Source: Nocardia wallacei (GTDB lineage: Bacteria > Actinomycetota > Actinomycetes > Mycobacteriales > Mycobacteriaceae). Taken from it: 64,000 nucleotides of DNA. Numbering within the stretch: position 1 is the stretch's first letter; each line of letters opens with the position of its first letter. Below are positions 11,446-30,766 of this stretch, piece by piece. The notes below the pieces were generated by a model. That model worked only from the letters and a program-made list of their open reading frames with translations, had not been told where the DNA came from and did no database searches. The translations under genes and the position numbers were made by a program. Where the stretch lies: positions 3,038,001 to 3,102,000 of the forward strand of contig NZ_AP023396.1 of assembly GCF_014466955.1 (NCBI RefSeq), in the 5' to 3' direction.

Positions 11446-11899
11446 ATGACCCCCACCCCCCACCGAGACGATCCGGGCCTATGCCGAGGCCAAGTCGCGC
11501 GCCGACGTCGCGGCCGCCCTCGCCGTCTGCCACGACGAGGCGGTCTTCGAGACCGTCCCGTTCCAGGCCGTCGCCCACGGTGCGACCGAGGCCGCGGCCC
11601 ACTTCGGCGGCTTCTTCCGCGCCTATCCCGATTACACGGTGGAACTCGAATACCTTTGCGAGGCGGGCGATCGCGTGATCGGATCCGGGTGGGTGCACGC
11701 CACGATGGCGGGTTCGCTCGCCGGGATGGCACCGACCGGGCGGCGCTTCCGCGTGCCCTTCGCCTGCCATTGGCGGGTGCGGGCCGGACGCATCGTCCAC
11801 GAGCGGTTCTTCTTCGATTTCCACCAGATGTGTGAACAGCTCGGCCTGTCCACCGATGACGCGGCGGCTCACTTCGCCGCTTGGCGGGCGGCCGCGTAG
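11446..11899 (+). pseudogene. SnoaL/NTF2-like small protein, frameshifted near the start
   Basis: From 11462 to the stop at 11899 one frame encodes a coherent NTF2/SnoaL-like fold of ~145 residues: TETIRAYAEAKSRADVAA, then HFGGFFRAYPDYTVELEY and a C-terminal FFFDFHQMCEQLGL. That frame has no start codon before GTG 11639; upstream it meets TGA at 11447. The well placed ATGs at 11443 and 11446, with GGAG in front, are in another frame. Removing one C from the six-C run at 11456-11461 joins them perfectly (MTPTPTETIRAY). Either the gene is broken, the tract is phase-variable, or there is a sequencing error. Confidence 0.75.
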
Positions 11900-14002: not shown

Positions 14003-14797
14003 ATGAGCAGCCTCGCGGCCACCGCCCGCACCTCCGATTCCGGCGGGCCGTCGCGCGGCCGGGTCGCGGTCGTGACCGGCGGCGCCTCCGGTATGGGAGC
14101 GGCCATCTGCCGCGCCTTCGCCGGCCACGGCCACCGCACCGCCGTGCTGGACATCGACGCGGCCGCCGCGCAGCGGACCGCGGACGAACTGCGGGCCGCG
14201 GGCGGCACCGCGCTGGCGTGCGCCCTCGATGTGACCGACCGCGACGCGGTCGAGGAGGCGCTGGGCAAGGTCCGCGCCGAGTTCGGCCCGGTGGAGATCC
14301 TGGTGACCAGTGCGGGCGCGGTCGGATTCGCGCCCTTCACCGAGATCACCCCCGCGCAGTGGCACCGCATCATCGAGGTGAATCTGACCGGCACGTTCCA
14401 TTGCGTACAGGCCGCGATCCCCGACATGGTGACCGGCGGCTGGGGCCGGATCGTGACGATCTCCTCGTCCAGCGCGCAGCGCGGCTCACCGGGCATGGTG
14501 CACTACACCGCGGCCAAGGGCGCCGTGGTCGCGATGACCAAGGGGCTGGCCCGCGAATACGCCACCCGGGGCATCACGGTGAACACCATCCCGCCCTCGG
14601 GCATCGACACTCCCATGTCGCGCCGCTCGCAGGACGCCGGGCACCTGCCCGACAACGCCACGATGGCGAAGGCGATCCCGGTGGGCCACCTGGGCACCGG
14701 GGACGATATCGCCGCCGCGTGTCTGTTCCTGTGCTCGGACGCGGCGGGTTACATCACCGGCCAGGTACTGGGCGTGAACGGCGGGGCGGTCATATGA
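14003..14797 (+). CDS. Short-chain dehydrogenase/reductase
   Basis: First gene of the Rieske/TauD operon, 264 residues. TGGASGMG at 25-32 is the cofactor motif, the usual NNAG reads TSAG (102-105), and the active-site Ser (VTISSSS, ~155), Tyr168 and Lys172 (YTAAK) are present. C-terminal YITGQVLGVNGG is typical. A ~20-residue N-terminal extension precedes the Rossmann fold. It could oxidise a diol or alcohol made by the oxygenases of the operon. RBS GAGGAG sits before the ATG, and the stop overlaps the next start. Confidence 0.9.
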   Translation: MSSLAATARTSDSGGPSRGRVAVVTGGASGMGAAICRAFAGHGHRTAVLDIDAAAAQRTADELRAAGGTALACALDVTDRDAVEEALGKVRAEFGPVEILVTSAGAVGFAPFTEITPAQWHRIIEVNLTGTFHCVQAAIPDMVTGGWGRIVTISSSSAQRGSPGMVHYTAAKGAVVAMTKGLAREYATRGITVNTIPPSGIDTPMSRRSQDAGHLPDNATMAKAIPVGHLGTGDDIAAACLFLCSDAAGYITGQVLGVNGGAVI

Positions 14798-15405
14798 CCG
14801 CGCCCCGGCTGGCGCCGCTGCCACCCGAGCAGTGGGACGAGCCCGCGCGAAACATGTTGCGGGGCAAGGTGAGCCTGGCCGACCGCTACCTGTCCGGCGC
14901 ACCCGACGCCCCGCCCATGCCGAACATCCTCGGCGTGCTCGGACATCACGCCGAACTGGCCGGAGCCTGGCTGGGCTACAACGGAACACTGCTGGAGCGG
15001 TCCGCGCTCGACGCCCGAGACCGCGAACTGATCATCCTGCGGGTGGCCTGGCGCACCGACTCGACCTACGAGTGGGCGCAGCACGTGCGCCTGGCGACGC
15101 GCGCCGGTGTCACCGAAGCGGAGATCGCCGCGGTGGCCCGCGGGCACGCCGCGCCGGTGTGGACCGCGTCGGACCAAGTGCTGCTGGCGGCCGCCGACCA
15201 GCTGCTCGACCGGCACGCCGTCGATGACGCCACGTGGGCGGAACTGGTGCGGCACTTCGACATTCGGCAGGTGCTCGAGGTGCTGTTCGTCGCCGGTTCC
15301 TATCTGTGCCTGGCGCTGGTGTGCAACAGCGTCGGCCTGCAACTCGACTCGGATATGGCACCGCCGCCGACTTTCGCACGACCGGAAACGGAGGAACGAC
15401 CGTGA
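14794..15405 (+). CDS. Carboxymuconolactone decarboxylase-like (AhpD-fold) protein
   Basis: A 203-residue helical protein of the CMD family. The core motif reads RDRELIILRVAWRTDSTYEWAQH followed by HVRLATRAGVTEAEI, without the CxxC pair of true AhpD peroxidases, which points to the decarboxylase or hydrolase-like branch. A second helical segment ends in VLEVLFVAGSYLCLALVCNS. Such proteins are frequent in aromatic and alicyclic catabolic operons but their reaction is usually unproven. It overlaps the SDR by 4 bp and the Rieske gene by 4 bp. Confidence 0.82.
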   Translation: MTAPRLAPLPPEQWDEPARNMLRGKVSLADRYLSGAPDAPPMPNILGVLGHHAELAGAWLGYNGTLLERSALDARDRELIILRVAWRTDSTYEWAQHVRLATRAGVTEAEIAAVARGHAAPVWTASDQVLLAAADQLLDRHAVDDATWAELVRHFDIRQVLEVLFVAGSYLCLALVCNSVGLQLDSDMAPPPTFARPETEERP

Positions 15406-16670
15406 GCCAATGGCCCAAGCCCGCCGAGGGCAGCTGGACACAGCACTATCCCGACCTCGGCACGTCGATGATCTCGTTCGAGGATTCGGTGTCCCCGGAG
15501 TTCTTCGAACTCGAACGCGAGGCGATCTTCAAGCGCGCGTGGCTCAATGTCGGCCGGATCGAACAACTTTCACGCACCGGCAGTTACTTCACCAAGGAGA
15601 TCGAGGCCGCGCGCACCTCGGTGATCGTGGTGCGCGACCGCGAGGGCGAGATCAATGCCTTCCACAATGTGTGCCGCCACCGCGGCAACAAGCTCATGTG
15701 GAACGACTTTCCGCGCGAGGAGGTGTCGGGCACCTGCCGCCAGTTCACCTGCAAGTACCACGGCTGGCGCTACGACCTCGACGGCTCGCTGAATTTCGTG
15801 CAGCAGGAGGGCGAGTTCTTCGACCTGGACAAGGGCGAATTGGGCCTGGTGCCCGTGCACTGCGACATCTGGGCGGGCTTCGTCTTCGTCAACCTGGACC
15901 CGAATCCGCGGCCGCGCCAGACGCTGCGGGAGTTCCTGGGCCCCATGGTCACCGCCCTCGACGGCTACCCGTTCGAGAAGATGACCGAATGGTATGTCTT
16001 CAGCGCCGACAACCAGAGCAACTGGAAGTTGTTCGCCGACGCCTTCCAGGAGTACTACCATGTCCCGGGCCTGCATCCGCAGCAGGTGCCCAATCCGGTC
16101 CGCACCGGAAAAGGCTTCGAGTGCGCGCACTTCCAGGTCGACGGCCCGCACCGGATGGTGTCCACGGGCGGCGCGCGGCGGTGGACGCTCCCCGCGGAGT
16201 ACATGTATCCGATCGAACGCATCACCCGCAGCGGCCTGGTCGGGCCGTGGGAGTCGCCGGATATCGGTGAGCCGCCCGGCCTGAATCCCGGCCGCATCGA
16301 ACCGTGGGGCATCGACAATTTCCAGATCTTCCCCAATATCGAGATCCTCATCTACCGCGGCTGGTACCTGCTCTACCGGTACTGGCCGACCTCCTACAAC
16401 ACCCACCGCTTCGAATGCGTGCTTGCCTACCAACCGGCGCGCACCGTGCGGGAACGGGTCGAGCACGAGGTGTCCTCGGTGGTGTTCAAGGAATTCGCGC
16501 TGCAGGACGCGGGCATGCTGACCGGCACCCAGACCGCGCTGGAATCGGCCTACCGCACCGCCGGGCTCACCCACTTCCCGGTCAACGATCAGGAAATCCT
16601 GGTCCGGCATTTCCACAAGGCCGTCGCCGACCGGGTCGACGAGTACCGGCGCGAACTGGCGGGGGTGTGA
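15402..16670 (+). CDS. Rieske non-haem iron oxygenase, catalytic (alpha) subunit, copy 1
   Basis: Hydroxylates a substrate using a Rieske [2Fe-2S] cluster and a mononuclear iron. Cluster ligands are Cys91, His93, Cys117 and His120. The iron site lies in NWKLFADAFQEYYHVPGLH with His220, His225 and a bridging acidic residue at Glu217. Length is 422 residues. GTG 15402 is preceded by GGAGGAAC. The first ~190 residues are nearly the same as in copy 2 (17894), while the C-terminal half diverges. No beta subunit, ferredoxin or reductase gene is nearby; a small helical protein follows instead. Confidence 0.93.
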   Translation: MSQWPKPAEGSWTQHYPDLGTSMISFEDSVSPEFFELEREAIFKRAWLNVGRIEQLSRTGSYFTKEIEAARTSVIVVRDREGEINAFHNVCRHRGNKLMWNDFPREEVSGTCRQFTCKYHGWRYDLDGSLNFVQQEGEFFDLDKGELGLVPVHCDIWAGFVFVNLDPNPRPRQTLREFLGPMVTALDGYPFEKMTEWYVFSADNQSNWKLFADAFQEYYHVPGLHPQQVPNPVRTGKGFECAHFQVDGPHRMVSTGGARRWTLPAEYMYPIERITRSGLVGPWESPDIGEPPGLNPGRIEPWGIDNFQIFPNIEILIYRGWYLLYRYWPTSYNTHRFECVLAYQPARTVRERVEHEVSSVVFKEFALQDAGMLTGTQTALESAYRTAGLTHFPVNDQEILVRHFHKAVADRVDEYRRELAGV

Positions 16671-16675
16671 CGCCC

Positions 16676-17011
16676 ATGGCCGCAGACCTGCTACCCCCCG
16701 AATTCGCCGAGTTCGAGCCCTTCGCGCACACCTGGTGCCTGGCAACGGAATCCGAACGCTGGGCGCGCCGCATGGCCGCCACCATGCCGGAGCTGGTGGC
16801 CTTCCACGACGCCTTCCTGCCGCGGCTGGACGAGGCCATCGCCTACTGTGACAAATTCCCCCTCGACGATCTGCCCGACGACGCGCTGCACCTGCTGCAC
16901 CTGGTGTATTCGCTGGTGATGGTCGCCATGGCGGTCGAGATCTTCCAGCAGACCAGACCCACCGACAGCGCCGACGCCGAGATCACCCGGATCGCCGAAC
17001 CGGTGCCGTGA
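16676..17011 (+). CDS. Small helical protein paired with Rieske oxygenase, copy 1
   Basis: A 111-residue protein without a family I recognise. It is paralogous to 19165-19497: shared blocks include DLLPPEF/DLLPAEF, EPFA, WCLA-E-ER, YCDKF-LDDLPD and LL-L-YS. Predicted mostly alpha-helical, with no signal peptide. It is shorter than and unlike the NTF2-fold beta subunits of ring-hydroxylating oxygenases. Each copy directly follows a Rieske alpha gene, so a role as partner or stabilising subunit is likely but inferred. ATG 16676 is chosen because it aligns with the start of copy 2; GTG 16667 is an alternative. Confidence 0.8.
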   Translation: MAADLLPPEFAEFEPFAHTWCLATESERWARRMAATMPELVAFHDAFLPRLDEAIAYCDKFPLDDLPDDALHLLHLVYSLVMVAMAVEIFQQTRPTDSADAEITRIAEPVP

Positions 17012-17025
17012 GAAGGACGGACATT

Positions 17026-17865
17026 ATGACGATCACCATCGACAAGCTCGGCCACAACGTCGGCGCGGAGGTCAAGGGTGTCGACCGCGATCGGCTGCTG
17101 GCCGACGACACCGTGGCCGACGCGGTGCTGGCGGCCCTCGAGGACAACGGCGTGCTGGTCTTCCGCGATCTGCACCTGGATCCGGAGACGCAGGTGGCAT
17201 TCTGCCGCAAACTCGGCGAGATCGACACCGAGGCCGGCCACCATCCGGTCGAGGGCATCTACCGGGTCAGCCTCGACACCACCAAGAACTCCTCGGCGAG
17301 CTACCTGCGCGCGACGTTCGACTGGCACATCGACGGCTGCACGCCGCAGGACGACGCCTACCCGCAGATGGCCACCATGCTGACCGCCAAGGCCGTGGCC
17401 GCCACCGGCGGGGAGACCGAATTCGCCTCCACCTACAAGGCTTACGACAACCTCGCCGACGCCGAGCGGACGCGGCTGGCGTCGCTGCGGGTCGTGCATT
17501 CGCTGGAGGCCTCGCAGCGGCTGGTGACCCCCGACCCGACGCCCGAGCAGCTGGCCGTGTGGCGTAGCCGCCCGGTGAAGGAACATCCGCTGGTCTGGAC
17601 GCACAAGTCCGGGCGCCGCTCGTTGGTGCTGGGCGCCTCGACCGATCACGTCGTCGGCATGGACCCGGTGCGGGGCCGGGCGCTGCTGGACGACCTGCTG
17701 CGCCGGTGCACCGCCCCGGACCGGGTGTACCGGCACGAATGGTCGGTCGGCGACACCGTCATCTGGGACAACCGCGGCGTGATCCATCGCGCCGCGCCGT
17801 ACGAGCCGGATTCGCCGCGAGAGATGTTGCGCACCACCGTGCTCGGTGACGAACCGATCCGATAG
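17026..17865 (+). CDS. TauD/TfdA-family Fe(II)/2-oxoglutarate dioxygenase
   Basis: A 279-residue dioxygenase that would hydroxylate its substrate while decarboxylating 2-oxoglutarate. The iron facial triad is visible: His101 and Asp103 in DWHIDG, and distal His254 in NRGVIHRAAPY. Arg in PREMLRTTVLGD is the usual 2-oxoglutarate-binding residue. ATG 17026 follows AGAAGGACGG; GTG 17008 upstream is less likely. It sits between the two Rieske/small-protein modules and may act on the same compound or a side-group of it. Confidence 0.92.
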   Translation: MTITIDKLGHNVGAEVKGVDRDRLLADDTVADAVLAALEDNGVLVFRDLHLDPETQVAFCRKLGEIDTEAGHHPVEGIYRVSLDTTKNSSASYLRATFDWHIDGCTPQDDAYPQMATMLTAKAVAATGGETEFASTYKAYDNLADAERTRLASLRVVHSLEASQRLVTPDPTPEQLAVWRSRPVKEHPLVWTHKSGRRSLVLGASTDHVVGMDPVRGRALLDDLLRRCTAPDRVYRHEWSVGDTVIWDNRGVIHRAAPYEPDSPREMLRTTVLGDEPIR

Positions 17866-17893
17866 CCCCGCCCCACCACGCCAGGAGAACACC

Positions 17894-19168
17894 ATGCCTC
17901 GTTGGCCCAAGCCCGCCGAAGGCAGCTGGACCCAGCACTATCCGGAACTCGGCACCGCGCCGATGTCCTACGACGACTCCATCACCCCGGAGTTCTTCGA
18001 ACTCGAGCGGGAGGCGATCTTCAAACGCGCCTGGCTCAATGTGGGCCGGGTGGAGCAGCTTCCGCGCACGGGCAGTTATTTCACCAAGGAGATCGCGGCC
18101 GCGCACACGTCGGTGATCGTGGTGCGCGACCGGGAGGGGAACGTCAACGCCTTCCACAACATCTGTCGCCACCGCGGAAACAAGCTGGTGTGGAATGACT
18201 TTCCGCGCGAGGAGGTGTCGGGGACCTGCCGCCAGTTCACCTGCAAGTACCACGGCTGGCGCTACGACCTCGACGGCTCGCTGAATTTCGTGCAGCAGGA
18301 AGAGGAGTTCTTCGACCTGGACAAGGACGCGCTCGGCCTGGTGCGCGTGCACTGCGACGTGTGGGCGGGGTTCATCTTCGTCAACCTCGACCGGGAGCCG
18401 CGGCAGTCGTTGCGAGAGTTCCTGGGCCCCATGGTGACCGGGCTGGAGGGCTATCCGTTCGACAAGCTCACCCAGCGGTTCACCTACCGGTCCGAGGTCG
18501 GCGCCAATTGGAAGCTGTACATGGACGCGTTCCAGGAGTTCTATCACGCGCCCGTGCTGCACGGTAAGCAGACGCCGGACAACTACTCCATGGCCGCGCA
18601 GCAGGCCGGTTTCGAGGCGCCGCACTACCGCCTCGACGGACCGCACCGGCTGGTGAGCACCTCGGGCGTGGTCACCTGGGAACTCGACCCTTCGATGCGC
18701 AAGCCGATGGAGGACATCACCCGCAGCGGCCTGTTCGGGCCTTGGGACGTGCCGGATCTGGGGGAGATGCCCGCGGGCCTGAATCCGGCCGGTTGCGATC
18801 CGTGGGGGCTCGACTCGTTCCAGCTGTGGCCCAATTTCGTGATCCTGATCTGGTCCGGCGGGTGGTATCTGACCTATCACTACTGGCCGACCTCGCACAA
18901 CACCCACACCTTCGAGGGCAATCTGTACTTCATGCCCGCCCGCACCGCCCGCGACCGGGTCGCGCACGAGATGGCGGCGGTGACGTTCAAGGAGTACGGG
19001 TTGCAGGACAGCAGCACGCTGGAGGCGACGCAGCTGATGCTGGAATCCCGTGCGGTGACGACTTTTCCGCTCAACGATCAGGAAATCCTGCTGCGGCACC
19101 TGCACAAGGTGGCCGGTGACTGGGTGGACGAGTACCGGCGCGAGCGCGCGGAGGCGGTGCGGTCATGA
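17894..19168 (+). CDS. Rieske non-haem iron oxygenase, catalytic (alpha) subunit, copy 2
   Basis: Paralogue of the gene at 15402, 424 residues. The Rieske motif CRHRG and CKYHGW and the iron-site segment DAFQEFYHAPVLH are intact. Identity with copy 1 is very high through the Rieske domain and the start of the catalytic domain (up to about residue 190, ending near FLGPMVT), then falls sharply in the region that shapes the substrate pocket. This suggests two enzymes that share redox partners but differ in substrate. RBS AGGAGA precedes ATG 17894; the stop overlaps the next start. Confidence 0.93.
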   Translation: MPRWPKPAEGSWTQHYPELGTAPMSYDDSITPEFFELEREAIFKRAWLNVGRVEQLPRTGSYFTKEIAAAHTSVIVVRDREGNVNAFHNICRHRGNKLVWNDFPREEVSGTCRQFTCKYHGWRYDLDGSLNFVQQEEEFFDLDKDALGLVRVHCDVWAGFIFVNLDREPRQSLREFLGPMVTGLEGYPFDKLTQRFTYRSEVGANWKLYMDAFQEFYHAPVLHGKQTPDNYSMAAQQAGFEAPHYRLDGPHRLVSTSGVVTWELDPSMRKPMEDITRSGLFGPWDVPDLGEMPAGLNPAGCDPWGLDSFQLWPNFVILIWSGGWYLTYHYWPTSHNTHTFEGNLYFMPARTARDRVAHEMAAVTFKEYGLQDSSTLEATQLMLESRAVTTFPLNDQEILLRHLHKVAGDWVDEYRRERAEAVRS

Positions 19169-19497
19169 GCGATCTGTTGCCGGCCGAGTTCGCCGACCTC
19201 GAACCGTTCGCCGAAAAATGGTGCCTGGCAAGCGAAACCGAACGTTACGCGCAACGGCTCGCCAGCACCATGGACGAGATGCAGCGGTTCTACGACGCGA
19301 TCACCCCGCGTGCGGAGGAGGTGATCGGCTACTGCGACAAGTTCGCGCTCGACGATCTGCCCGACGAGGTGCAGAACCTGCTGTACCTGCTGTATTCGAT
19401 GATCCAGGTGTCGTTCCCGGTGGAGGTCTGGAGCCAGCCCCGCATTCCGGACACCGGCGTGGCCGCGCTGGAATGCGTCCTGGAGCCGCATCCATGA
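19165..19497 (+). CDS. Small helical protein paired with Rieske oxygenase, copy 2
   Basis: A 110-residue paralogue of 16676-17011 with the same conserved WCLA, YCDKF and DDLPD blocks. It is coupled to the second Rieske gene by ATGA overlap and to the amidohydrolase by the same kind of overlap. The C-terminal ~20 residues differ between the copies. Function is unknown; the repeated pairing argues for a specific partnership with this Rieske subgroup. Confidence 0.8.
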   Translation: MSDLLPAEFADLEPFAEKWCLASETERYAQRLASTMDEMQRFYDAITPRAEEVIGYCDKFALDDLPDEVQNLLYLLYSMIQVSFPVEVWSQPRIPDTGVAALECVLEPHP

Positions 19498-20738
19498 GCG
19501 CGAAACACACCGTCCTGCGCGCGGCCCGATGGGTCGACGTCGACACCGGCCGGGTGCACTCGCCCGCGTCGATCCTGGTGGAGGACAACGCCATCGCCGC
19601 CGTCGATCCGGCGCAGACGCCCGCCGACGCGCGAGTGGTCGAGCTGGGTGACCTGACGCTGCTGCCGGGGTTGATGGATATGGAGATCAACCTGCTCATC
19701 GGCGGCCCGGAGAATCCGTCGGGGCTGCCCCACCCGATGCACGGCGTGCAGGACGACCCGGTCTACCGGACGCTGCGGGCCACGGTCAACGCCCGCACCA
19801 CCCTGCACGCCGGATTCACCACCGTGCGCAATCTCGGCCTGATGGTGAAGACCGGCGGCTACCTGCTGGACGTCGATCTGGGCCGGGCCATCGAGCAGGG
19901 CTGGGTGGAGGGGCCGCGCATCGTCGGGGCCGGGCACGCCATCACCCCGACCGGCGGGCACCTCGATCCCACGATGTTCCAGCGCCTCGCCCCGCACATC
20001 ATGCCGCTGAGCGTGGAGGAAGGGCGCGCCAACGGGGTGCCGCAGGTGCGGGAATGTGTGCGGTATCAGATCAAATACGGCGCCGAGGTCATCAAGATCT
20101 CGGCCTCGGGCGGGGTGATGTCGCACGGCACCGTCGCAGGGGCGCAACAGTATTCCGACGAGGAGTTGGCCGCGATCGTCGACGAGGCGCATCGCGCCGG
20201 TGTCCGGGTCGCCGCGCACGCCCACGGCGACGCCGGGATCCGCGCGTGCATCCGGGCGGGCGTGGACTGCATCGAGCACGGGTCGCTGGCCTCCGACGAC
20301 ACCATCGCCATGATGGTCGACCACGGCACGTTCCTGGTGCCCACCAGCTACCTGTCCGAGGGGCTGGATGTCTCCAAAGCCGCTCCCGCACTACAGCAGA
20401 AGGCCGCCGAGGTGTTCCCGAGGGCGCGGGAGACGCTGCGCAAGGCCATCGCCGCCGGAGTCAAGATCGCCTGCGGCACCGACGCTCCCGCCGTCCCGCA
20501 CGGCGACAACGCCAAGGAACTGTGGGCGCTGGTCGACCGGGGTATGACGCCCGCGCAGGCCTTACGCGCCGCCACCGTCACCAGCGCCGAACTCATCGGC
20601 GCGGACGACCGCGGACGCCTGGCGGCGGGACTGCTGGCCGATATCATCGCCGTCCCGGGCGATCCCACCGCCGACATCACGGTGCTGCAGGATGTGCGGT
20701 TCGTGATGAAGGACGGCCGAATCGCCAAGCAGCCCTGA
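19494..20738 (+). CDS. Amidohydrolase-superfamily protein lacking the HxH metal motif
   Basis: A 414-residue TIM-barrel hydrolase related to imidazolonepropionase/prolidase-type amidohydrolases. The first-strand motif, normally DxHxH, reads DMEIN (Asp62, Glu64, Asn66), so both histidines are replaced. The remaining ligands are present: Lys201 in VIKISASGG, His242 and/or His244 in AHAHGD, His262 in IEHGS and Asp330 in CGTDAP. A single-metal site is therefore likely. It would hydrolyse an amide, ester or ring of a pathway intermediate. It overlaps the preceding small gene by 4 bp. Confidence 0.87.
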   Translation: MSAKHTVLRAARWVDVDTGRVHSPASILVEDNAIAAVDPAQTPADARVVELGDLTLLPGLMDMEINLLIGGPENPSGLPHPMHGVQDDPVYRTLRATVNARTTLHAGFTTVRNLGLMVKTGGYLLDVDLGRAIEQGWVEGPRIVGAGHAITPTGGHLDPTMFQRLAPHIMPLSVEEGRANGVPQVRECVRYQIKYGAEVIKISASGGVMSHGTVAGAQQYSDEELAAIVDEAHRAGVRVAAHAHGDAGIRACIRAGVDCIEHGSLASDDTIAMMVDHGTFLVPTSYLSEGLDVSKAAPALQQKAAEVFPRARETLRKAIAAGVKIACGTDAPAVPHGDNAKELWALVDRGMTPAQALRAATVTSAELIGADDRGRLAAGLLADIIAVPGDPTADITVLQDVRFVMKDGRIAKQP

Positions 20739-20770: not shown

Positions 20771-22249
20771 ATGGCCGAGGCCGTGCTGTCACGGCAGCAG
20801 CTGTACATCGGCGGTGCGTGGGTCACGCCCGGCACCGCCGACACCATCGAGGTGATCTCGCCGCACACCGAGCAGCCCGTTGCCCGGGTGCCCGCGCCGG
20901 GACACGCGGACGTCGATCGTGCGGTCGCGGCGGCGCGTACGGCCTTCGACGCGGGGCCGTGGCCGCGGCTGGATCCGAGTGAACGCATCGCCGTGGTGCG
21001 CGAGCTGGCCGAGCGTTTCCGGCCGCGTCAGGAGGAACTCGCGCAGCTGATCACCACCGAGATGGGCGCCCCGATCACCTTCTCCCGCTCGGCGCATGCC
21101 CGGCTGCCCGGCGCGATGATCGGCGCCCTCGCCGATGTCGCCGCGAAACACCCGTGGCACGAGACGCGCCGCGGGGCGTTCGGCGGTGCGGTCGAGGTGT
21201 ATCGAGAGCCGGTCGGGGTGGTCGCCGCGATCATCCCGTGGAACATGCCGATGTTCCTGACCGTGGCGAAGCTGGTGCCCGCCCTGCTCGCCGGGTGCAC
21301 GATCGTGCTCAAGCCCTCGCCGGAGACGCCGCTGGATGCCTACTTCATGGCCGATCTACTGGACGGGCTGGACGTGCCGCCCGGTGTGGTCAGCATCCTG
21401 CCCGGGGATCGTGAGGTCGGCCGGTATCTGGTCGCGCATCCGGGCGTGGACAAGGTGTCGTTCACCGGGTCCACCGCGGCGGGCCGGGAGGTGGCCGCAG
21501 CGTGCGGTGCCGCGCTGCGCCGGGTCGGTCTCGAGCTGGGCGGCAAATCCGCCGCGGTCGTGCTCGATGACGCCGATCCGGAGGCCGTCGCCGCGGGCAC
21601 AGCCGTGGCAGGGCTGATGAACGGCGGCCAGGCTTGCGTCGCGCAGACCCGAATTCTGCTGCCGCGCAGCCGTTATCACGACTATGTTGACGCGCTGGCG
21701 AGCATGGTGGAGAACCTTTCCGTCGGTGACCCGTTCGACCCTGCCACTCGGATCGGCCCCCTGGTGACCGAGCGCCAGCAGCTGCGGGTCTCCGGTTACA
21801 TCGAGCAGGGGCGGCGCGAGGGCGCCCGGCTGCTGGTCGGCGGCCTCGGGTTCCCCGACGGCCTCGACCGCGGCTGGTATGTGCGGCCCACACTGTTCGT
21901 CGATGTCGACAACGGTATGCGGATCGCCCAGGAGGAGATCTTCGGGCCGGTGCTCGGGGCGATCGCCTACGACGACGAGGACGACGCCGTGCGGCTCGCC
22001 GACGCGACCGAGTACGGGCTGTCCGGCTCGATCTGGACCTCCGACATCGAGCGCGGCCGCGCCGTGGCGCGCCGAATTCGCAGCGGCACACTGGGAATCA
22101 ACCAGGCATACAGCATGGACCCGGCCGCGCCGTTCGGCGGCGTCAAGGCCAGCGGCATCGGCCGCGAGTTCGGGCCCGAAGGTTTGGACGGGTTCCTCGA
22201 CACCAAATCCGTCTCCGTCGCCGGGGCGGACGGCCGGAGCGGAGGATAG
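20771..22249 (+). CDS. Aldehyde dehydrogenase (NAD(P)-dependent)
   Basis: A 492-residue ALDH. The catalytic Cys289 lies in NGGQACVAQTR, the general-base Glu in VGLELGGKSA, and the cofactor/oxyanion segments PWNMP and FTGST are normal. It oxidises an aldehyde, probably produced by the oxygenase or SDR steps of this operon, to an acid. The ATG is preceded by CAGGAGGTC, a strong ribosome-binding site, 32 bp after the amidohydrolase. The NMP in place of the usual NYP/NFP of the PWN segment is a minor variation. Confidence 0.93.
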   Translation: MAEAVLSRQQLYIGGAWVTPGTADTIEVISPHTEQPVARVPAPGHADVDRAVAAARTAFDAGPWPRLDPSERIAVVRELAERFRPRQEELAQLITTEMGAPITFSRSAHARLPGAMIGALADVAAKHPWHETRRGAFGGAVEVYREPVGVVAAIIPWNMPMFLTVAKLVPALLAGCTIVLKPSPETPLDAYFMADLLDGLDVPPGVVSILPGDREVGRYLVAHPGVDKVSFTGSTAAGREVAAACGAALRRVGLELGGKSAAVVLDDADPEAVAAGTAVAGLMNGGQACVAQTRILLPRSRYHDYVDALASMVENLSVGDPFDPATRIGPLVTERQQLRVSGYIEQGRREGARLLVGGLGFPDGLDRGWYVRPTLFVDVDNGMRIAQEEIFGPVLGAIAYDDEDDAVRLADATEYGLSGSIWTSDIERGRAVARRIRSGTLGINQAYSMDPAAPFGGVKASGIGREFGPEGLDGFLDTKSVSVAGADGRSGG

Positions 22250-22251
22250 CC

Positions 22252-23424
22252 GTGCGACTGACCTTCGACGAGGATGTGGAGCGCTTCCGCGCCGAGTTCG
22301 TGGCCTTTCTGGACGAGCATTTGCCCGCAGAGGCCGAAGCGGTCGAGCGGGCGCGTTCCACCGCGCACATTCCCGAGTGGGCCCGCCGCTGGCAGCGCGT
22401 GCAGTTCGAGCACGGCTGGCTGATCCCGGGGTATCCGCCGCGCTTCGGTGGCCGGGACGCCGGGGTGCTGCAGCAGTATGTGCATCAGGAAGAACTGGCC
22501 GAGCGCCGGATCTATCAGACCTTCAATCCGCAGGGGCTGGGGATCGTCGCCGCCTCCCTGATCACCTTCGGCACGCCCGAACAGCAACAGCGCTGGGCGA
22601 TCCCGATCCTGCGTGGTGAGCGCACCGCGTCGCTCGGGATGAGTGAACCCGGCGCGGGGTCGGATCTGGCGAGCCTGCGCACCCGGGCGGTGCTCGACGG
22701 CGATCACTTCGTGGTCGACGGCCACAAGATCTGGACGTCGGGCGCGCACGACGCGGATGTGCTGCTCGCCTTCGTCCGGACCGATCCCGGCGCGGCGAAG
22801 CATCGTGGCATCTCGGCGCTGCTGATCCCGACCGATCTCCCGGGCGTGGAGCGCCGGCCGTTCGCCTCGGTCACCGCCCGGCACGACGTGGACCTGAACG
22901 AGGTGTTCTTCCGCGATGTCGTGGTACCCGCCGAGAACCTGGTCGGCGAGTTGCACCGCGGCTGGGCCGTGGCCAACGGGTCGCTCGGCCACGAACGCAC
23001 TCTGCTGTGGCTCAGCTACGCCGACCGGTTGGACCATCTGCTCGAGCAGTTTCATCCGGCGACCGAGTTGGATGCCGACCGCTACGCCGGCTTGGTTCTC
23101 GACAGCTACGCCCTGCGCCTGCTCGGCTCGGCCGCCTTGGCCCGCGCGGCCCGCGGCGAGGTCGACGTCGCCGCCCTCTCGGTGCTGAAGCTGCTCGGCT
23201 CCGAGGCCATCCAGCACGCCACCGAAAGTGCCCTCGCCGCAACGGGTTCCGATGGACTGGATCAGGATGCCGTCACCGGCCGGTTCAGCCCGCTCAACCC
23301 CGAGGCCACCGCGCCCGGCTGGTTCGAGCGCTACGCCCGCAGCTTCGCCCACACCATCGCGGGCGGCACCTCCGAAATCCAGCGCAATATCATCGCCCAA
23401 CGCGTGCTCGGCCTGCCACGGTGA
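22252..23424 (+). CDS. Acyl-CoA dehydrogenase
   Basis: Last gene of the operon, 390 residues. GMSEPGAGSDLASLRT and GHKIWTSGA bind FAD/substrate, and the C-terminal AGGTSEIQRNIIAQRVLGLPR is the tetramer/FAD-binding end. The MCAD catalytic position is Gly; Glu in LGHERTLL is the likely base. The GTG start sits two bases after the ALDH stop with GGAGCGGAGG in front. The convergent ALDH gene of the next operon ends only 4 bp away, with no hairpin terminator between them. Confidence 0.92.
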   Translation: MRLTFDEDVERFRAEFVAFLDEHLPAEAEAVERARSTAHIPEWARRWQRVQFEHGWLIPGYPPRFGGRDAGVLQQYVHQEELAERRIYQTFNPQGLGIVAASLITFGTPEQQQRWAIPILRGERTASLGMSEPGAGSDLASLRTRAVLDGDHFVVDGHKIWTSGAHDADVLLAFVRTDPGAAKHRGISALLIPTDLPGVERRPFASVTARHDVDLNEVFFRDVVVPAENLVGELHRGWAVANGSLGHERTLLWLSYADRLDHLLEQFHPATELDADRYAGLVLDSYALRLLGSAALARAARGEVDVAALSVLKLLGSEAIQHATESALAATGSDGLDQDAVTGRFSPLNPEATAPGWFERYARSFAHTIAGGTSEIQRNIIAQRVLGLPR

Positions 23425-27507: not shown

Positions 27508-29334
27508 TCACTTTTTCAAGGTCAAGCCCGCCAGGTCGCCCGCGTCTCGCCAGCCCTGCAACATTTCCTCGAGCACGTAGAAGCCGCCCCAGAACGGGTC
27601 GCCGAGGAACGAGCGCCCGTTCGGCTCGCCCTCGCTGTTGTAGTAGCCGGGCGTGCACTCCGAGACGAAGGTGCTGTTGTCGACGGTGTTCGCGCGGATG
27701 GTCTGTACCCAGCCGGCCTCGGCGTCGGCGGTGGGTTCCACCACGGTGGCGCCGCGCTGCTGGGCCTGCTCGACGATGTAGGCGATGTGGTCGGCCTGCT
27801 GCTCGAACATCAGGGTGGTGGCCGCGGTGACGCCGCCCTGGATGAACCCGGTGAAGTAGATGTTCGGGAACCCGTGCGTGGTGATGCCGTGCAGCGTCCG
27901 GAAACCCTTGCCCCAGTGTTCGTAGAGCGAGCGGCCGCCGCGGCCGGTGAACGGCTCGATGTCGTACTGGCGGTCCAGGGAGGTGGTGATCTCGAAGCCG
28001 CTGGCGAAGATGATGCAGTCGACCTCGTGCTCGACGCCGTGGGCGAGGATGCCCTGCGCGGTGATGCGCTCGACGCCCTTGGTGTCGGAGACGTCGACCA
28101 GCGTCACGTTGGGGCGGTTGAAGGTCGGCAGGTACTCGTCGTTGAAGACCGGCCGCTTGCACATGTTGCGGTAGTAGGGCTTGAGCTTCTCGGCCGTCTC
28201 CGGATCCTCGACGATCTCCTCGACCCGCCGCCGCAGCCGCTCCATCGCCCGGTAGTCCTCGATCTCCTTGAGCTCCAGGAACTTCGCCGGATCGGCGAGC
28301 GCGGCCCAGCCGCCCGTCGCGTTCAGCTTCGCGGCCAGGTTGCGCGCGACCTCGGTCCAGCCGTCGCAGATGAGGTCCGGCTCGCCGGGGCTGTAGAACG
28401 CGAAGGCGGCGTTGTGGAAGTTGCGCTGCCGCTCCGCCCGCCAGCCCGGCCGCAGCGACTTCACCCATTCCGGGTCGGTGGGGTAGTTGTCGCGTTCGAA
28501 GATGTAGGACGGGGTGCGCTGGAAGACGGTGAGATGCTTCGCATCCCGGGCCAGATGCGGAATCGCCTGCACGGCAGTCGATCCCGTGCCTATGATGGCG
28601 ACCTTCTTGTCGGCGAGGCGGTCCAGGCCGCCGTGCAGGTTCCCGCCGGTGTACTCGTAGTCCCAGCGTGCGGTGTGGAAGGTGTGGCCCCGGAAGTCCT
28701 TGATGCCGGGGATACCGGGCAATTTCGGCCGGTTGTAGGGACCTTGGCACATCACCACGAAGCGGGCGCGGATATCGTCGCCCCGGTTGGTGCCGATCCG
28801 CCAGCGCTCGATCTCCTCGTCCCATTCCAGCGAACGGGTCAGGGTATGGAAGATCGCCTTGTCGTAGAGGCCGAAATGCTTCCCGATGCGCTGGGCGTGT
28901 TCGTAGTTCTCGTCGCCGTGGGTGAACTTCTCGGTCGGCATGTAGCCGGTTTCCTCGAGCAACGGCAGATAGGTGTACGCGTCCGAGTCGACCTGGATCC
29001 CCGGATAGCGATTCCAGTACCAGACCCCGCCGAAATCGCCGCCCAGCTCCACGATCCGGAAATCCGTGACACCCGCACGCAGCAGCCGGTGGGCGGTGAT
29101 GAGCCCCGCGAAACCGCCGCCCAGAACGACGACCTCGATATCGGCCGAGATCGGGGCGCGCGGCACCACGGGCAGATGCGGATCGCGTTCGTAGAATTCC
29201 GCGAACTCGTCCTCGGCCTCGAGGTACTGCTGCTGGCCGTCGGGCCGGAGCCGCTTGTCCCGCTCCGCCAGGTATTTGCGGCGCAACGCCTCCCTGTCGA
29301 CGTCGGGCGTTACCGTGGGCTCGCAGTGTCGCAT
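27508..29334 (-). CDS. Baeyer-Villiger-type flavin monooxygenase
   Basis: A 608-residue FAD/NADPH monooxygenase that inserts oxygen next to a ketone to make an ester or lactone. An N-terminal extension of ~65 residues leads to the first Rossmann motif GGGFAG (72-77). The Baeyer-Villiger fingerprint FRGHTFHTARWD starts at Phe214. A second Rossmann motif IGTGSTAVQ follows at ~245-253, and ATG-like FASGFE is near residue 450. RBS and ATG 29334 are clear. Placed between SDR and Rieske genes and with an SMP-30-like gene upstream, it likely opens a cyclic ketone. Confidence 0.93.
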   Translation of the reverse strand: MRHCEPTVTPDVDREALRRKYLAERDKRLRPDGQQQYLEAEDEFAEFYERDPHLPVVPRAPISADIEVVVLGGGFAGLITAHRLLRAGVTDFRIVELGGDFGGVWYWNRYPGIQVDSDAYTYLPLLEETGYMPTEKFTHGDENYEHAQRIGKHFGLYDKAIFHTLTRSLEWDEEIERWRIGTNRGDDIRARFVVMCQGPYNRPKLPGIPGIKDFRGHTFHTARWDYEYTGGNLHGGLDRLADKKVAIIGTGSTAVQAIPHLARDAKHLTVFQRTPSYIFERDNYPTDPEWVKSLRPGWRAERQRNFHNAAFAFYSPGEPDLICDGWTEVARNLAAKLNATGGWAALADPAKFLELKEIEDYRAMERLRRRVEEIVEDPETAEKLKPYYRNMCKRPVFNDEYLPTFNRPNVTLVDVSDTKGVERITAQGILAHGVEHEVDCIIFASGFEITTSLDRQYDIEPFTGRGGRSLYEHWGKGFRTLHGITTHGFPNIYFTGFIQGGVTAATTLMFEQQADHIAYIVEQAQQRGATVVEPTADAEAGWVQTIRANTVDNSTFVSECTPGYYNSEGEPNGRSFLGDPFWGGFYVLEEMLQGWRDAGDLAGLTLKK

Positions 29335-29383: not shown

Positions 29384-30739
29384 TCAGGTCAGCTCGCGGG
29401 GCTCGCCGGCGCCCATGTACGAGGCGAGGTTGTGATGCAGGTTGACGATGCTGCGTTCGCGGTACGGGTTGGGCTTGGCGCCGCTGAAGCCGCGCGACTT
29501 CAAACCCTTCTGCACCGCGGCCATGTTCGAGAAGTCCTGCGGCAGCACGGTTCTCCAGTTCGGATCGCCCTCGGGCGTGTACTCCCACGCGGTCTCCGGT
29601 TCCTCGCCGGGCGGGAACAGCTCGAACACCGCCGCCTCGAAGATGCACTTGTCCGGGTCGTAGCCGTAGGGCCGGAACCGATAGCACAGCATGTTGTTGA
29701 GCGCGTGGCCGATCTGGAAGTTGGGGAAGATCTGCCAGGCGGTGCCGGCCCGGGCGACGATATCGGGATCGACCTTCGGCCAGACCACTCCGCGCGCCTC
29801 GTCCTCGGCGCGGGCGGTGTCGAGCCAGTAGCGCAGCACCTCGTTGGCGGGGGTGCCCTCGGGCAGCTCGTCGACCAGCCGGTTCGCGACGTCGACCAGG
29901 GTGCGGGTGGTGTTGGTGTTGGCGTTCTCCCAGGTGAAGTTCTGCAGCGTGGCCGTCGACACCCGGGCGTCGGGCCCGGCGCCGAGGCGCACCTTGGCCT
30001 GGTTCTCCTCCATGCCCTTCGGCGCGTCGTAACCGATGTTGCTGTGCTTGCCCTGCGCCCGCGCCCAGCCCAGGAACTGGCCGAAGTTCATGAACTCCGG
30101 GTGGGTGTATGGCACGTGGTAGGTCTCCATGAATGCCTCGAAGGCGACCTTCCAGTTGCAGTCGAAGGTCAGCCACCGGCGCCACCGGTAGCGCATCTTC
30201 TCCAGTTCGAAATGCTCGAGCAGGCTGGCGGCGGGTTCCAGATAGTCGCGCAGCGGTCCGGCGTCGGGATCCAGATTGATCCAGATCCAGCCGCCCCAGG
30301 TGTCCACCTGCACTCGATTCAGCCCGTCGTTGCCGGTCAGGCCGCACGGCCAGTCCTCGCGTTCGGCCACGAAGGTGTTGTTGCCCTCCAGGTCGTAGCG
30401 CCAGCCGTGGAAGCCGCAGACGAACTGCTTGCGGCTGCCGCGGGCGTCGTGCGCGCCCGGCGGGGTATCGATGAGGCGGCGGCCGCGGTGCGCGCACACG
30501 TTGTGGTAGGCGCGGATGGTGTCCGGGGCGGTGCGCACCACGATGATCGAATCGTCCTGGATCTCATAGGTCAGGAAGTCACCGACACGGGGAATCTCCT
30601 CCACCCGGTCGACCTGCTGCCACACCTTGGCCCAGAGTCTGTCGCGTTCGGCGCGCGCGTATTCCTCGGAGATGTACGCGTCCACGCCGATGACCAGCGG
30701 GGTCGACAGCGGTTCCGATCGCAGATCGGTTTCGGTCAT
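29384..30739 (-). CDS. Rieske non-haem iron oxygenase, catalytic subunit (third, distinct type)
   Basis: A 451-residue Rieske oxygenase. Cluster ligands are Cys82, His84, Cys108 and His111 (CAHRG, CGFHGW). The iron site is in NWKVAFEAFMETYHVPYTHPE with two His and a bridging Glu. It is only distantly related to the pair at 15402/17894 and no small partner protein follows. ATG 30739 has AGGAGG upstream; GTG 30742 is an alternative. No ferredoxin or reductase gene is in this operon, so electrons must come from elsewhere. Confidence 0.92.
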   Translation of the reverse strand: MTETDLRSEPLSTPLVIGVDAYISEEYARAERDRLWAKVWQQVDRVEEIPRVGDFLTYEIQDDSIIVVRTAPDTIRAYHNVCAHRGRRLIDTPPGAHDARGSRKQFVCGFHGWRYDLEGNNTFVAEREDWPCGLTGNDGLNRVQVDTWGGWIWINLDPDAGPLRDYLEPAASLLEHFELEKMRYRWRRWLTFDCNWKVAFEAFMETYHVPYTHPEFMNFGQFLGWARAQGKHSNIGYDAPKGMEENQAKVRLGAGPDARVSTATLQNFTWENANTNTTRTLVDVANRLVDELPEGTPANEVLRYWLDTARAEDEARGVVWPKVDPDIVARAGTAWQIFPNFQIGHALNNMLCYRFRPYGYDPDKCIFEAAVFELFPPGEEPETAWEYTPEGDPNWRTVLPQDFSNMAAVQKGLKSRGFSGAKPNPYRERSIVNLHHNLASYMGAGEPRELT

Positions 30740-30766
30740 CACATCCTCCTCATGGGCACCGCGGTG

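Follow-up and report, generated by a model that had tools for sequence, protein, structure and literature searches.

Small, predicted helical proteins encoded beside one branch of Rieske oxygenases in Nocardia wallacei and its relatives

What does a protein of about 110 residues do when its gene follows that of a Rieske oxygenase so closely that the two can overlap? The question is raised by a 64,000-nucleotide stretch of Nocardia wallacei DNA (contig NZ_AP023396.1, positions 3,038,001 to 3,102,000; hereafter the window), in which two Rieske oxygenase alpha-subunit genes, R1 and R2, are each followed by a gene for a small protein, S1 and S2. R and S without a number denote the two families. 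A previous reading made from these letters alone (the sequence-only reading) had described two paralogous Rieske genes, each followed by a paralogous protein of about 110 residues, with a 2-oxoglutarate dioxygenase between the modules. This layout is borne out, with 67% identity between R1 and R2, 52% between S1 and S2, and a middle gene that matches PF02668. Our best reading of the sequence comparisons is that S is dedicated to R and, without being catalytic, serves it as a subunit or helps in its assembly.

R1 (15402..16670, + strand; GTG start, 422 aa) and R2 (17894..19168, +; 424 aa) both score above the cut-offs for PF00355 (Rieske) and PF00848 (Ring_hydroxyl_A) in a Pfam scan. The Rieske ligands (CRH-X23-CKYH) and the mononuclear-iron motif (QE(F/Y)YHXPXLH) are intact in both, R1 carries the motif NWKLFADAFQEYYHVPGLH, and a glutamate occupies the position before HX4H. 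By sequence, R1 and R2 are alpha subunits of Rieske non-heme iron oxygenases; oxygenase activity and a trimeric state are predicted. R has the alpha fold of the CntA-type alpha3 oxygenase, with approximately 21% identity over the structural alignment. R1 and R2 fall outside the GbcA equivalog NF058607 (121 and 123 bits; cut-off 670). The spacing from CXH to CXXH is 23 residues in actinobacterial R, compared with 17 in most outgroup Rieske proteins, and this longer spacer is a possible partner contact region.

S1 (16676..17011, +; 111 aa) and S2 (19165..19497, +; 110 aa) are small, acidic proteins, and the S2 gene overlaps R2 by 4 nt (ATGA). Searches of Pfam and NCBIfam with a limit of E = 1 gave no match for either protein. 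The AlphaFold2 model of S2, the one S protein modelled, contains four helices and no strand, with a predicted local distance difference test score (pLDDT) of 90.6, which agrees with the earlier description of the small proteins as helical. Because of this four-helix prediction and the lack of a family match, S does not appear to be an NTF2-fold beta subunit. S belongs to a large family: one search gave 1643 homologues above its threshold, 120 of them listed. S2 is under purifying selection, with Nei–Gojobori (NG86) ratios of non-synonymous to synonymous substitution (dN/dS) of approximately 0.14, 0.16, and 0.30 in three comparisons. Several S proteins are labelled 'Xaa-Pro dipeptidase' in public records. 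The label is likely erroneous, since such a name suits the adjacent amidohydrolase rather than S.

The R and S genes are tightly paired. We scanned the best 80 of 171 loci in named genomes that encode an S relative and found 126 R–S pairs. The gap from the R stop to the S start, estimated with the nearest start codon, is at most 22 nt in all of them; 52 of the 126 overlap, 37 of these by 4 nt. The paralogue types of R and S agree in 123 of the 126. Over 136 loci, some of which overlap one another, 178 of 183 S matches have a same-strand R gene no more than 300 nt away. The remaining five lie in L005 (a cut locus of the N. wallacei genome itself), at a contig edge (L066), next to an R gene split into two open reading frames (L121), and in L081 and L122. 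R–S is kept while the other neighbours change between taxa, even across phyla, and in L128 the pair is flanked by insertion sequence (IS) elements on both sides. The adjacency of R and S is beyond chance. That the two genes lie so close, often overlap, diverge in parallel, and stay paired as their neighbours change argues that S works with R.

The same picture is obtained when whole genomes are surveyed. In the 7.9 Mb N. wallacei genome, S genes and close R genes number three each and form three R–S pairs; the third (R3 and S3) lies approximately 2 kb upstream of the window (L004:15410-17012, − strand). The genome encodes six PF00848 alpha subunits; three are paired with S, and of the three that lack it, one (R4) is encoded in the window. 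In an even draw of 396 genomes of the phylum (S at E ≤ 0.001, R at E ≤ 1e-60, up to four candidates scored per genome), S occurs in 13 genomes and R in exactly those 13. All 34 S matches adjoin R; for 33 of them it is a listed R, and for the last an unlisted R of 44% identity. Within the genus, S and R occur in an identical set of 62 of 148 genomes (162 matches for S, 167 for R); these counts describe co-occurrence and not gene-by-gene adjacency. Copy numbers are unequal in seven of the 62 (one extra R in six, one extra S in the other).

The pairing also extends to proteobacteria. A search of plasmid proteins gave 16 S matches, 15 proteobacterial and one from Rhodococcus, at 30–46% identity. 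R adjoins 15 of the 16 when a split R is counted, and three S genes stand before their R in reversed order. The sequence-only reading had named as refuting a finding that the small proteins lie mostly away from Rieske genes; the plasmid and phylum counts show the opposite. A search of plasmids with R gave 29 records. Eight lower-scoring R genes (H29, H33, H35, H36, H37, H39, H42, and H44) have no S detectable by profile in approximately 7 kb around them; this check left out H34, H38, H40, H41, H43, H45, and another R place on the N. resinovorum plasmid. R–S pairing is thus far more general than could be seen in a single window.

We collected 200 R rows, 172 with S alongside and 28 without. The 28 comprise 11 distant R, 13 close R that are fragments or cut by the end of the locus, and four others: L130_13141, L152, a small piece in L019, and the first half of the split gene in L121. 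The row L130_13141 had been cut, and further DNA contains S (8.9e-30) directly 3′. The R of L152 (Sphingobium sp. TKS pTK3) belongs to the S group and is truncated next to IS6100, without S. A 58-row tree, rooted at the midpoint, left out R rows shorter than 330 residues. Close R (E ≤ 1e-100) entered either through a draw (24 rows) or by name, in both cases only with S present, and 11 close rows without detected S, all cut by a locus end or with a broken frame, were excluded. In this tree, 51 rows are grouped with support 98/97, 49 of them marked with S and two without, and all seven rows outside the group are without S. With the rows marked in this way, the tree requires three changes of the S label, compared with a mean of 8.6 for shuffled labels.

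From these data, we favor the following reading, to which we assign a probability of roughly 55%. R1 and R2 would be terminal oxygenases of a distinct Rieske branch with a CntA-like alpha core. Each alpha subunit would be made together with its own S, a dedicated, non-catalytic, acidic four-helix protein, presumably through translational coupling. S would bind the alpha trimer stoichiometrically, giving a component of the alpha3-S3 type, and may stabilise the trimer or shape access to it. Electrons would be fed in trans by a KshB-type reductase with FAD (flavin adenine dinucleotide), NAD (nicotinamide adenine dinucleotide), and 2Fe-2S domains.

Several observations weigh against this reading. 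Six Nocardia R genes (G403, G479, G485, G510, G514, and G536; L160-L165) have no S in the 5.0–5.5 kb fetched around them, where the best S match has E 0.36 with filters off. Their metal motifs are intact, the nearest R of N. wallacei is R3 (69–73%), and their genomes carry other S genes. They were found after the tree had been made and fall inside the 51-row group by similarity. An additional R in G450 and S genes lacking a matching R in G497 and G510 fell outside this check. Since the six solitary genes are intact, this sub-lineage may manage without a neighbouring S, either by working without S or by using one encoded elsewhere, and adjacency is therefore not universal. In the other direction, L081 and L122 carry S genes with no R nearby. 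The support of the tree is circular for actinobacteria, because those rows were drawn only from R with S; therefore, the surveys bear the weight there. A model of an R–S read-through fusion in L051 reached a predicted template modelling score (pTM) of 0.75 and a mean pLDDT of 81.0, from a model type that lacks an interface score. The S helices of the fusion have pLDDT values of approximately 71–85, the tail is lower, and the four other models were clearly worse. Phylogeny confounds the couplings between R and S, which come from around 46 effective sequences. The proposal in the sequence-only reading that a dedicated helical partner makes a new oxygenase architecture thus holds in part. One Rieske branch does have in S a dedicated neighbour that is helical and not of the NTF2 type; the binding of S to R is a proposal, and the adjacency has exceptions.

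The main rival to a stoichiometric subunit is a maturation or folding chaperone, which would hold the nascent alpha subunit or aid insertion of the 2Fe-2S cluster or iron and then leave, so that the mature enzyme is a plain alpha3 trimer. Tight gene coupling would be expected here as well, S is small, acidic, and helical, and the alpha core is closest to CntA, an alpha3 enzyme. The solitary R genes, whose genomes bear other S genes, also fit a chaperone. However, each module has a single S for its R, and the types of the two diverge in parallel, which suits a subunit at least equally. In a 50-row S alignment, none of the columns that are invariant or nearly so holds a cysteine or histidine, which also counts against a chaperone. 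We regard the chaperone as the less likely of the two, at about one chance in four.

A further alternative is that S docks the alpha trimer to a reductase of the KshB or VanB type or to a ferredoxin, or gates that contact. The sequence-only reading had noted no beta subunit, ferredoxin, or reductase, which is correct for the span of the two modules. For the beta subunit it extends to the whole genome, where PF00866 has no match at E ≤ 0.1 (the same search was positive in 3 of 14 control genomes). It does not extend to the donor: a KshB-like reductase is encoded approximately 30 kb upstream of R1, outside the window (G000:C1:3021798-3022868). This protein shares 40% identity with the L028 reductase, which contains NAD-binding, FAD-binding, and Fer2 domains. 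With a reductase or ferredoxin query, tblastn gave a match at 46 of the 80 related loci; at the other 34, neither query matched in the fetched DNA. In the mycobacterial loci L058, L028, and L020, the stretch from the amidohydrolase gene to the short-chain dehydrogenase/reductase (SDR) gene holds a MarR gene together with a gene for a KshB-like reductase or Fer2 ferredoxin, and plasmid loci (L125, L127, L129, and L130) have reductase or ferredoxin genes near the S-bearing oxygenase. This recurrence of donor genes in actinobacteria and on plasmids favors docking. However, S is found with KshB-like, VanB-like, and separate-ferredoxin donors. Because the donors vary and 34 of 80 loci lack a match, S does not track one donor type, and we consider a docking or gating role improbable. 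Least credible of all is a passenger role, or that of an unrelated enzyme of the pathway, in which S stands beside R only through an operon travelling whole: the operon (SDR, TauD, amidohydrolase) is indeed conserved in many relatives, but the pair stays together across phyla as neighbours change, is reversed in order three times, and lies between IS elements in L128.

How does the predicted R–S component compare with known systems? The CntA-type monooxygenases of quaternary ammonium compounds (CntA for carnitine, GbcA, and stachydrine demethylase) differ from R, which has an adjacent gene for a helical S. The alpha3beta3 oxygenases (HcaEF, biphenyl and naphthalene dioxygenases, IadDE) resemble R–S in having a homologous alpha subunit and a small second gene directly 3′. 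Their small subunit is of the NTF2-fold PF00866 type, whereas the S2 model is all-helical without a PF00866 match and the N. wallacei genome has no PF00866 protein. Nor is S simply a replacement for the beta subunit, because five proteobacterial loci on four plasmids (L125, L130, L131, L133, and L156; L130 and L156 are one plasmid) encode R, S, and an NTF2-like SnoaL_4 protein close together. A SnoaL gene also stands by R–S in L124. The 3-ketosteroid 9-alpha-hydroxylase KshAB resembles the proposed R system in combining an actinobacterial oxygenase with an FAD/NAD/2Fe-2S reductase; we liken the reductase of this domain order to KshB. To our knowledge, KshAB has no helical partner. By annotation, the Acinetobacter plasmid R–S loci lie near genes for styrene/indole monooxygenase, flavin reductase, and SDR, as in the iif indole-degradation and WHOP-like clusters, and the consulted sections of the account of these clusters describe no S-like protein (PMC12538310).

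The consulted sections of a 2025 review give four architectures for Rieske oxygenases, namely alpha3, alpha3beta3, alpha3alpha'3, and alpha3alpha3 (PMC12445004). As far as the literature searched shows, S is probably an undescribed partner family of one Rieske oxygenase branch, and from the sequences a new oxygenase architecture is plausible. A wider proposal is that an all-helical S subunit, outside the set in those sections, goes back to the ancestor of the branch, is shared by actinobacteria and proteobacteria, and forms three-subunit enzymes with SnoaL_4 in some operons; this is tentative, and we place it a little short of an even bet. Rieske oxygenases are much studied and engineered. If this branch needs S, expression of alpha alone could fail or mislead, and a protein now recorded as 'hypothetical protein' or mislabelled would account for such failures.

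The genes around the modules suggest that an organic compound is imported and broken down step by step. Upstream of R1 are an SDR gene (14003..14797, +; PF13561/PF00106), which recurs by the R–S modules of relatives, and a carboxymuconolactone decarboxylase/AhpD-like gene (14788..15405, +; PF02627), which recurs before R1 in several Nocardia relatives. Between the modules is the TauD/TfdA-type 2-oxoglutarate dioxygenase (17026..17865, +; PF02668, 3e-57; 279 aa). The next operon gene, an amidohydrolase (19494..20738, +; PF01979, 1.1e-44; NF051886, 397 bits, below the cut-off of 500), overlaps S2 by 4 nt and recurs 3′ of S2 in most of the 80 related loci. It is followed by genes for an aldehyde dehydrogenase (20771..22249, +; PF00171, 4e-151) and, from reading of the frame, an acyl-CoA dehydrogenase-like protein (22252..23424, +), with tblastn homologues near some other R–S loci. 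Importer parts are encoded at the start of the window.

Some minor features were also observed. The downstream amidohydrolase is retained in L081, while L122 has cupin-like and regulator-like genes by reading. L155 (a Sphingobium yanoikuyae plasmid) has the Rieske–TauD–Rieske order of the window without S, and its Rieske proteins are distant. A short SnoaL-like (NTF2-fold) open frame at 11639-11899 (+), which does not belong to the operon and precedes R1 by approximately 3.5 kb, is possibly a fragment or has a misread start. R3–S3 is followed by an acyl-CoA dehydrogenase-like gene, and the divergent upstream gene reads like a substrate-binding protein of the ATP-binding cassette (ABC) type. 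A further Rieske alpha gene without S, R4, lies in the window at 29384-30742 (−) and offers an internal contrast to the paired genes. Its neighbour (27508-29334) encodes a Baeyer-Villiger-type monooxygenase, for which the best NCBIfam match is PtlE (658 bits; cut-off 1100).

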